Assembly (NCBI GenBank): GCA_035573675.1
Contig: DATMAB010000013.1
Span: 1-64,000 of the forward strand
DNA from: Terriglobales bacterium
GTDB taxonomy: Bacteria; Acidobacteriota; Terriglobia; Terriglobales; Acidobacteriaceae
DNA: 64,000 nucleotides
Direction of reading: 5' to 3'
How positions within the stretch are numbered: the first letter of the stretch is position 1; the number at the start of each line of letters is the position of its first letter. Below, piece by piece: positions 27,067 through 29,291 of this stretch. The notes below the pieces were generated by a model, which was not told where the DNA came from, ran no database searches, and saw nothing but the letters and a program-made list of their open reading frames with translations. The position numbers were made by a program, and so were the translations under genes.

Positions 27067-27849
27067 ATGTCCGACGACCGGGATATCTTGTACGCGGCCA
27101 TCGGCGCCGGCTTCGGCGCCTGGTCGTTCTTCAAAGGCTTCCGGATCCTTCGCAATAAACGCCTGGTCGAGAACACGCCGACGTCGAAGTGCCGCTCGGT
27201 GGCGCTCGGCCTGGCCGAGGTGCAGGGCAAGGCCACGGGCGACACCTGGTTCATCAGCCCGCTGGCCGAGGTGCGCTGCTACTGCTCGCAACTCAAGATC
27301 GAGCGCTACGAGAAGCGCGGCAAAAGCTCGCGCTGGGTCACCGTGCACGAGCGCCAGAACATGGTGCCCTTTTTCGTGGAAGACGAGACCGGCCGCGTGC
27401 GCGTGAACCCGGCGGGCGCTGAACTGGACCTTTCTCCCGACCTGGAGTACGAAAACGAGAGCGGCCTTGTGAACTGGCTGAAGCAGGCCTTCAGTGGCGA
27501 TCCCGCCGACGGCCTGGCGGGCCGCTCCATCGAGGAACGCTTCCGCAGTTACTGCGCGCGGCAGGGAGTCTCCTACTCGGGGCCCATGCGCTTCACGGAG
27601 CGCAACCTGTGCCCCGGAGGCCCGGTCTACGTGTTCGGCATGGCCAACGAGGTCCGCGGGGAAGCCGACGAGAACCTGCGCGTGGTCATCGAGAAAGGGA
27701 AACATCACCCCTGGTTCTTCATCGCGGAGTCAAGTCAAAAAGAAGTCTTGCAGAAACTGGCCCGCAACGTATGGTTGTACGTGTTCGGGGGCGGGGCGTT
27801 GTTCCTGGCCTGCCTGGGATGGCTGCTGGTCCGCCTGAATTTGTGGTAA
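27067..27849 (+). CDS. GIDE-domain membrane protein (MULAN/BAM-like)
   Basis: 260 aa. A helix at about 8-26 and a C-terminal helix at about 235-255 flank a soluble beta-rich region. Residues about 45-120 match the GIDE/BAM domain (GLAEVQGKA, then PLAEVRCYCSQLKIERY, then PFFVEDETGRVRV), known from the mitochondrial ubiquitin ligase MULAN and from bacterial membrane proteins. No RING finger is present. Two lemA genes follow 21 and 597 nt downstream in the same direction, and bacterial GIDE genes are, from general knowledge, often near lemA. The function of the set is unknown. TATGCT ends 14 nt before the ATG. Confidence 0.72.
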   Translation: MSDDRDILYAAIGAGFGAWSFFKGFRILRNKRLVENTPTSKCRSVALGLAEVQGKATGDTWFISPLAEVRCYCSQLKIERYEKRGKSSRWVTVHERQNMVPFFVEDETGRVRVNPAGAELDLSPDLEYENESGLVNWLKQAFSGDPADGLAGRSIEERFRSYCARQGVSYSGPMRFTERNLCPGGPVYVFGMANEVRGEADENLRVVIEKGKHHPWFFIAESSQKEVLQKLARNVWLYVFGGGALFLACLGWLLVRLNLW

Positions 27850-27870
27850 ACGATATCGAGGAGGTTGCCC

Positions 27871-28431
27871 ATGATCGCGCTGGGATTCCTGGTGGTCCTG
27901 CTGGTGGCGGCGGTGGTCCTTGTGATGTGGGCTATCGGCATCTACAACGGCCTCATCGCCATGCGTAATACCGTGGACAAGGAATGGTCGGACATCGACA
28001 TCCTGCTCAAGCAGCGCTATGACGAATTGCCCAAGCTGGTGGACACCTGCAAAGGCTACATGGCGCATGAGCGGGGCACATTCGAGGCCATCACCAAGGC
28101 GCGCGCGGCGGTGGCCCAGGCCGGTACCCCGGCTCAGCGCATGGAGGCGGAGAACCAGATCACCGGGGCGCTCCGGACTCTGTTCGCGGTGGCCGAGAAC
28201 TATCCCGAGCTGAAGGCCAACCAGAACTTCCTGCAGTTGCAGGGACGGGTGACAGGACTGGAGAGCGACATCGCGCGCCGCCGCGACGAATTCAACGAGG
28301 CCGCCAACGTCTACAACATCCGCATCGCGCAGGTGCCGGACATGATCGTGGCCCGCTTCCTGGGCTTCATGCGGCGCGACCTGTTCCAGGCCGCCGCCGC
28401 CGAGCGCGCGGACGTGAAGATCAGCTTCTGA
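27871..28431 (+). CDS. lemA: LemA family protein, copy 1
   Basis: 186 aa. One N-terminal membrane helix (about 4-24) followed by the LemA helical bundle: VDKEWSDIDILLKQRYDELPKLV, NYPELKANQNFLQLQ and the late NEAANVYNIRIAQVPD are all family blocks. The ATG is preceded by GAGGAGG at 27858-27864 with a 6-nt gap, which decides against the in-frame TTG at 27865. LemA proteins sit in the inner membrane with a soluble helical domain; their molecular function is unsettled. It lies between the GIDE gene and a second lemA. Confidence 0.93.
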   Translation: MIALGFLVVLLVAAVVLVMWAIGIYNGLIAMRNTVDKEWSDIDILLKQRYDELPKLVDTCKGYMAHERGTFEAITKARAAVAQAGTPAQRMEAENQITGALRTLFAVAENYPELKANQNFLQLQGRVTGLESDIARRRDEFNEAANVYNIRIAQVPDMIVARFLGFMRRDLFQAAAAERADVKISF

Positions 28432-28446
28432 ACGGGGAACCAGGCT

Positions 28447-29004
28447 ATGGGCTTCATGATTGCAGCCTTCTTCTTCCTCGTGGTGGCGGGCCTGGTGCTC
28501 TACTTCATCACCGTCTACAACAGCCTGGTTTCGATCCGCAATGAGTGCGACCGCGCCTGGTCCAACATCGACGTGCTGCTGAAGCAGCGGCACGACGAGC
28601 TGCCCAAGCTGGTGGAAACCTGCAAGGGCTACATGCAATACGAGCGGCAGACGCTGGAAAACGTGGTGCAGGCGCGCACCGCCTGGCTCAACGCCACCAC
28701 CGTAGACCAAAAACTGCAGGCGAACCAGCAAACCGCCGGAGCGCTGAAGACGCTGTTCGCAGTGGCGGAGAAGTATCCTGACCTCAAAGCCAACCAGAAC
28801 TTTTTGCAGTTGCAGGCGCGCATCAGCCAGCTCGAATCGCACATCGCCGACCGGCGCGAGTTGTACAACGACGCCGTCAACACCTTCAACATCCGCATCG
28901 CGCAGTTGCCGGACGTATTCATCGCCCGCATGCTGGCCTATGTTCCTAGGCCTCTGTTCGCCGCCACTGGCGCCGAGCGCGCGGACGTGAGCGTGGCCAT
29001 GTAG
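28447..29004 (+). CDS. lemA: LemA family protein, copy 2
   Basis: 185 aa, a paralogue of the preceding gene, 15 nt downstream. Shared blocks include RAWSNIDVLLKQRHDELPKLV, YPDLKANQNFLQLQ, and NTFNIRIAQLPD; both copies end in a GAERADV/AERADV motif. The membrane helix is at about 4-24. The pair probably arose by tandem duplication and may form hetero-oligomers. A CCCACGTCTGCGCC hairpin begins 9 nt after the stop and probably ends the operon. Confidence 0.93.
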   Translation: MGFMIAAFFFLVVAGLVLYFITVYNSLVSIRNECDRAWSNIDVLLKQRHDELPKLVETCKGYMQYERQTLENVVQARTAWLNATTVDQKLQANQQTAGALKTLFAVAEKYPDLKANQNFLQLQARISQLESHIADRRELYNDAVNTFNIRIAQLPDVFIARMLAYVPRPLFAATGAERADVSVAM

Positions 29005-29012
29005 GGTGTTCC

Positions 29013-29050
29013 CCCACGTCTGCGCCGAAAGGCGTGGCGCAGATCATGGG
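29013..29050. terminator. Hairpin repeat after the lemA operon
   Basis: CCCACGTCTGCGCC (29013-29026) pairs with GGCGCAGATCATGGG (29036-29050), with a single bulge. Same family as the hairpins at 12038-12074 and 12177-12213. There is no U-tract. Confidence 0.5.
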
Positions 29051-29291
29051 GCTTCATCATCCGCGCTGCCACGCCGGACGCCTGCCGGGCCATCCTTTCC
29101 CTTCCACTCAGTCTCGGCTGCCTCAGTGTTCATTTGTAGCGAACCGTAGAGTTCCATCGGCATGGTAACCGCCCCCGGAGTTACCCCACCGCACCAAGTT
29201 AACCAATAGCCCGAAGGTGGCGGGCGGAGCCGGGTGTGGTTGGCGGCGTGGTAATCTCAATCTGCTCTGCGGTTTTCGCTGCCACCTTCGC

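Follow-up and report, generated by a model that had tools for sequence, protein, structure and literature searches.

A GIDE-domain membrane protein and a distinct class of LemA proteins are probable functional partners in Acidobacteriota and other prokaryotes

The mitochondrial ligase MULAN (MAPL, MUL1) carries a BAM/GIDE domain between two membrane helices, and its BAM domain is located in the intermembrane space (PMC4457424). LemA proteins (PF04011) have one N-terminal membrane helix, and a structure is available for a Thermotoga LemA (2ETD). The LemA homologue MamQ is required for wild-type-like magnetosome membranes, and its loss leads to aberrant membranes (PMC4902198). Haloarchaea also contain genes annotated as 'GIDE domain-containing protein'. 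Our literature search found no paper linking GIDE with LemA; a 2009 paper (reference 7 of PMC4457424), which lay outside this search, is said to be the first description of prokaryotic BAM proteins.

We analyzed a 64,000-nucleotide stretch of a Terriglobales genome (hereafter, the window), in which a GIDE gene and two lemA genes follow one another on the forward strand at positions 27067-29004, separated by intergenic gaps of 21 and 15 nt. The features of this region are as follows.

27067..27849, + strand: GIDE/BAM-domain membrane protein gene, 260 aa, without RING and without EF-hand insert (PF12483, E 4e-17)
27070..27174, + strand: predicted N-terminal membrane helix of GIDE, residues 2-36 (AF2; acidic before, K/R-rich after)
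27175..27735, + strand: predicted beta-rich BAM domain, residues 37-223 (AF2), with conserved R43, S44, G48, E51, G54, C71, D106, and G191
27736..27834, + strand: predicted C-terminal membrane helix of GIDE, residues 224-256 (AF2 and hydropathy)
27860..27864, + strand: GGAGG, strong ribosome site of lemA1, from the sequence
27871..28431, + strand: lemA1, GIDE-type LemA, 186 aa with an N-terminal membrane helix (PF04011, E 1.4e-52; profile A3, 288.7 bits)
28434..28438, + strand: GGGGA, moderate ribosome site of lemA2, from the sequence
28447..29004, + strand: lemA2, GIDE-type LemA, 185 aa with an N-terminal membrane helix (PF04011, E 2.3e-50; profile A3, 304.7 bits)
29012..29051, + strand: palindromic repeat 3' of lemA2, a dispersed family and not a canonical terminator

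The original prediction described a GIDE/BAM protein lacking a RING finger, followed by two tightly spaced tandem lemA genes with good ribosome sites. The domain assignments were borne out: PF12483 matched residues 82-247 of the GIDE protein at 62.6 bits (curated cut-off, 23.6) as the sole domain found, and the lemA1 and lemA2 products scored 177.9 and 170.8 bits against PF04011 (cut-off, 26.2), with the short spacing given above. The statement on ribosome sites was right only in part, because no obvious site was seen for the GIDE gene. For lemA1, the ATG at 27871 was favoured as the start, and the program-called TTG at 27865 is less likely. A GIDE-type lemA lies directly 3' of GIDE on the same strand, the arrangement that we refer to as a GIDE–LemA pair. 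The flanking genes, a HAD-type hydrolase upstream and an HD-GYP/GAF protein downstream, belong to other families. No known defence system was matched by PADLOC and no RNA element by Rfam.

The two LemA proteins of the window share 53% identity, and hydropathy placed their membrane helices at residues 1-19 and 3-21. They have the same fold by sequence as 2ETD (E 2.9e-32). They are homologous to MamQ but fall below the cut-off of the MamQ equivalog (NF040966, 250 bits), scoring 76.6 and 66.7 bits. In the tree, lemA1 grouped with weak support (84/51) toward the LemAs in second position at other tandem loci, a placement that may reflect a swapped gene order or an independent duplication. The source genome (3.16 Mb) contains one GIDE gene and three LemA genes, the third of which lies alone elsewhere.

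Like MULAN, the window GIDE has a BAM domain between two membrane helices: the AF2 model (pLDDT 91.6, pTM 0.83) consists of a long helix, a beta-rich domain, and a second long helix. Unlike MULAN, it is encoded with LemA and has no C-terminal RING; the protein stops just past its second membrane helix, and Pfam detected neither a RING nor any second domain. A RING or other catalytic domain was likewise not found in the scanned relatives. On this sequence evidence, the best reading is that the window GIDE is not a ubiquitin ligase, and nothing favours ligase activity. When the BAM model was searched with Foldseek, no solved structure matched under E 1e-3, and the best matches were mostly OB folds (SSB, PriB; E about 0.01, prob about 0.5), which gives only a hint of an OB-like fold.

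The charge bias around the membrane helices was also considered. In GIDE proteins, the segment that joins the last N-side helix to the BAM motif contained a mean of 4.6 K/R, versus 1.3 before the helix; in LemA proteins, the mean was 2.3 K/R after the membrane helix versus 0.9 before it. From this bias, the BAM domain and the LemA helical bundle are both predicted to lie on the cytoplasmic face. This is contrary to one paper in which the C-terminal domain of LemA is assigned to the lumen side (PMC3905215), and if the prediction is right, the window BAM domain and that of MAPL differ in orientation.

To sample GIDE loci irrespective of LemA, a PF12483 search of 297 Acidobacteriota genomes was performed, which identified 15 genomes with GIDE, several of them with LemA beside it. 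An alignment of these GIDE proteins was then used as the query for a scan of named genomes, yielding 80 loci; the alignment was required, as the window GIDE used alone as the query of the genome collection gave no match. The scan used one motif and therefore samples a single large branch among the GIDE proteins of prokaryotes. In 61 of the 80 loci, a lemA gene was present 3' of GIDE on the same strand, usually within about 40 nt, and a downstream lemA on the opposite strand was seen in none (0/80). Where at least 1 kb of downstream sequence was available, the LemA domain started within 300 nt in 58 of 75 loci. The adjacency is therefore not confined to the window. Two findings had been named beforehand as counting against the original prediction, the lack of a GIDE profile match and a lemA adjacency seen only here, and neither was obtained.

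The 61 linked loci represent 11 named bacterial phyla and two archaeal lineages. By phylum, a linked lemA was found at 17/32 GIDE loci in Acidobacteriota, 23/23 in Bacteroidota, 5/5 in Thermodesulfobacteriota, 3/3 each in Elusimicrobiota and Pseudomonadota, and 2/2 each in Myxococcota and Ignavibacteriota; one linked locus each came from Nitrospirota, Fusobacteriota, Eiseniibacteriota, and Coatesiibacteriota. The archaeal loci belong to one genome of Micrarchaeota (Microcaldota) and one of Candidatus ainarchaeum, and a further archaeon has three tandem GIDE genes with one lemA. The haloarchaeal GIDE genes mentioned above resemble the window GIDE in domain and length but differ in context: in three plasmid-borne cases, outside the 80-locus sample, no LemA was found within 3 kb.

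The GIDE-LemA-LemA order of the window recurred at five further Acidobacteriota loci, two of which have three GIDE genes, and the order LemA-GIDE-LemA was found in Providencia and Proteus. In both the GIDE and the LemA tree, the Providencia, Proteus, and Pasteurella copies nest inside Bacteroidota, and this agreement suggests that GIDE and LemA moved as a pair. E. coli genomes contained no DNA similar to the Proteus copy. The Bacteroidota and Pasteurella loci have an extra small membrane protein gene behind LemA. Such a gene (about 130 aa) was located directly 3' of lemA in 21 loci (the Bacteroidota loci within L068-L099, and L081); its product matched Pfam only below the threshold and NCBIfam not at all. 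On a 489-kb plasmid of Providencia alcalifaciens (L173), a LemA-GIDE-LemA-small protein cluster was observed in which GIDE is annotated 'hypothetical protein', an annotation that makes the GIDE–LemA link easy to miss. No natural GIDE–LemA fusion was seen; a candidate 994-codon open frame at L102 was rejected, as its upstream portion appears to be read in antisense; at the related locus L051, GIDE and lemA are separated by a distinct gene on the minus strand.

We next asked whether GIDE is accompanied by a particular class of LemA, scored with a profile (A3) built from GIDE-adjacent LemAs. Because of this construction, membership of the class depends in part on gene neighbourhood, but the genomes tested were not chosen by the profile; in Acidobacteriota, 18 genes scored at least 264 bits and all others at most 222. 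Among 396 genomes of this phylum, the 18 high-scoring genes were distributed over 17 of the 21 GIDE-bearing genomes and were present in none of the 375 GIDE-free genomes. In a second phylum, that of a Geobacteraceae genome, the scores split at 252 versus 215 bits, and the class was present in 7/9 GIDE genomes versus 0/189 others. Fisher tests gave p values of 2e-26 (Acidobacteriota), 7e-15 (Acidobacteriota at the genus level), and 2e-11 (second phylum), all of which are too small because related genomes are not independent. The third LemA of the source genome and the standard LemAs had lower A3 scores and lay apart in the tree; unlike them, the LemAs of the window belong to a separate high-scoring class that tracks GIDE. 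This LemA class depends on GIDE in a near-obligate manner.

Several exceptions among the GIDE genomes were examined. In G280, the LemA next to GIDE is partial and close to the end of a contig (L111), and in G499 GIDE is situated at a contig end. The GIDE matches in G175, G191, G354, and G578 are either weak or divergent; in the divergent Acidobacteriota G175, G191, and G354, GIDE had no nearby LemA. In one Acidobacteriaceae clade, the adjacency has been lost and most genomes retain LemAs whose place in the tree is among the GIDE-adjacent LemAs. In unlinked cases, GIDE and LemA are usually both still in the genome, and of all the evidence, this retention of the GIDE-type LemA speaks most strongly for a mutual dependence of the GIDE and LemA functions.

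Taken as a whole, these data indicate that GIDE and LemA are very likely dedicated functional partners. As this special LemA is found only in GIDE genomes and the pairing is recurrent, one membrane complex is probable, and we favour, with less assurance than the partnership itself, a stable inner-membrane complex in which the two proteins bind physically. GIDE would serve as the scaffold, its two membrane helices holding the BAM domain against the cytoplasmic face, and one or two GIDE-specific LemAs, each with a single membrane helix and a cytoplasmic helical bundle, would bind to it. By analogy with MamQ, the one specialised LemA member that offers a precedent for such a role, the complex may organise or stabilise a patch of the cytoplasmic membrane, the job that we tentatively favour. 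The recurrent pair and the GIDE-tracking LemA class join two orphan families and provide each with a testable partner.

Alternatively, GIDE and LemA could be co-expressed and act in the same envelope process without binding. Linkage and co-occurrence show shared function, not contact, and linkage can vanish while both genes stay, as this alternative would allow; the predicted location of both proteins on the same membrane face, the usual gap of no more than some 40 nt, and the tracking of GIDE by the special LemA class but not by standard LemA make it rather unlikely in our judgement. That two common membrane genes became neighbours by chance or hitch-hiking is refuted by the recurrence and is hardly credible. 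LemA is indeed common, with at least one copy in 36/36 GIDE-bearing genomes searched via the loci; yet with few LemA genes per genome, the lemA gene repeatedly lies close by on one strand and one side of GIDE, across many phyla, and the class is missing from the GIDE-free genomes of both phyla.

The family name and MULAN biology (PMC4457424), and only these, would support a third reading, in which bacterial GIDE is a ligase precursor that acts as an adaptor for membrane protein quality control or degradation, with LemA holding the substrate. The lack of a RING or catalytic domain noted above, together with a published survey without any prokaryotic RING (PMC4457424), renders it very improbable.

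A further difference among GIDE proteins was found within the BAM domain. An EF-hand loop (e.g. DTNKDGKIDITE) is inserted between two BAM strands in 13 of 87 GIDE sequences, which come from Nitrospirota, Acidobacteriota, Thermodesulfobacteriota, Myxococcota, Elusimicrobiota, and Coatesiibacteriota (a single loop each at L028, L034, L051, L053, L056, L058, L060, L061, L063, L065, L066, L070, and L080). The loop of the Nitrospira GIDE (L028) was modelled as a helix-loop-helix, and the window GIDE has a short loop and no EF-hand at this position. In the EF-hand relatives, the loop may add calcium control to the proposed complex, a control that the window version would lack. It is a long shot that GIDE–LemA represents an ancient module for membrane remodelling in prokaryotes, gated by calcium in many lineages, from which MAPL inherited its BAM domain; if so, the ancestral partner of BAM would be a LemA-like protein. 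Separately, the GIDE proteins at L066, L058, L060, L061, L080, and L114 have a length of about 570-690 aa and carry a long extension at the N terminus; in the two scanned (L066 and L114), the extension matched no other Pfam family.

Finally, the strong terminator-like hairpin predicted behind the operon was examined. The 81-nt stretch does fold (-36.6 kcal/mol, z -2.1), but the hairpin at 29012-29051 has no T run and for this reason is absent from the terminator scan list. Its palindrome, GTCTGCGCCGAAAGGCGTGGCGCAGA, has at least 35 genomic copies (up to 3 mismatches) versus 0 for the reversed control, identifying it as a dispersed palindromic repeat that gives no evidence for a dedicated terminator; the terminator reading was therefore rejected. 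The copies are often clustered (e.g. G000:C18:3323-16246), and the source genome contains seven Y1-type transposase genes, which suggests that the palindrome belongs to a REP/RAYT-like family.
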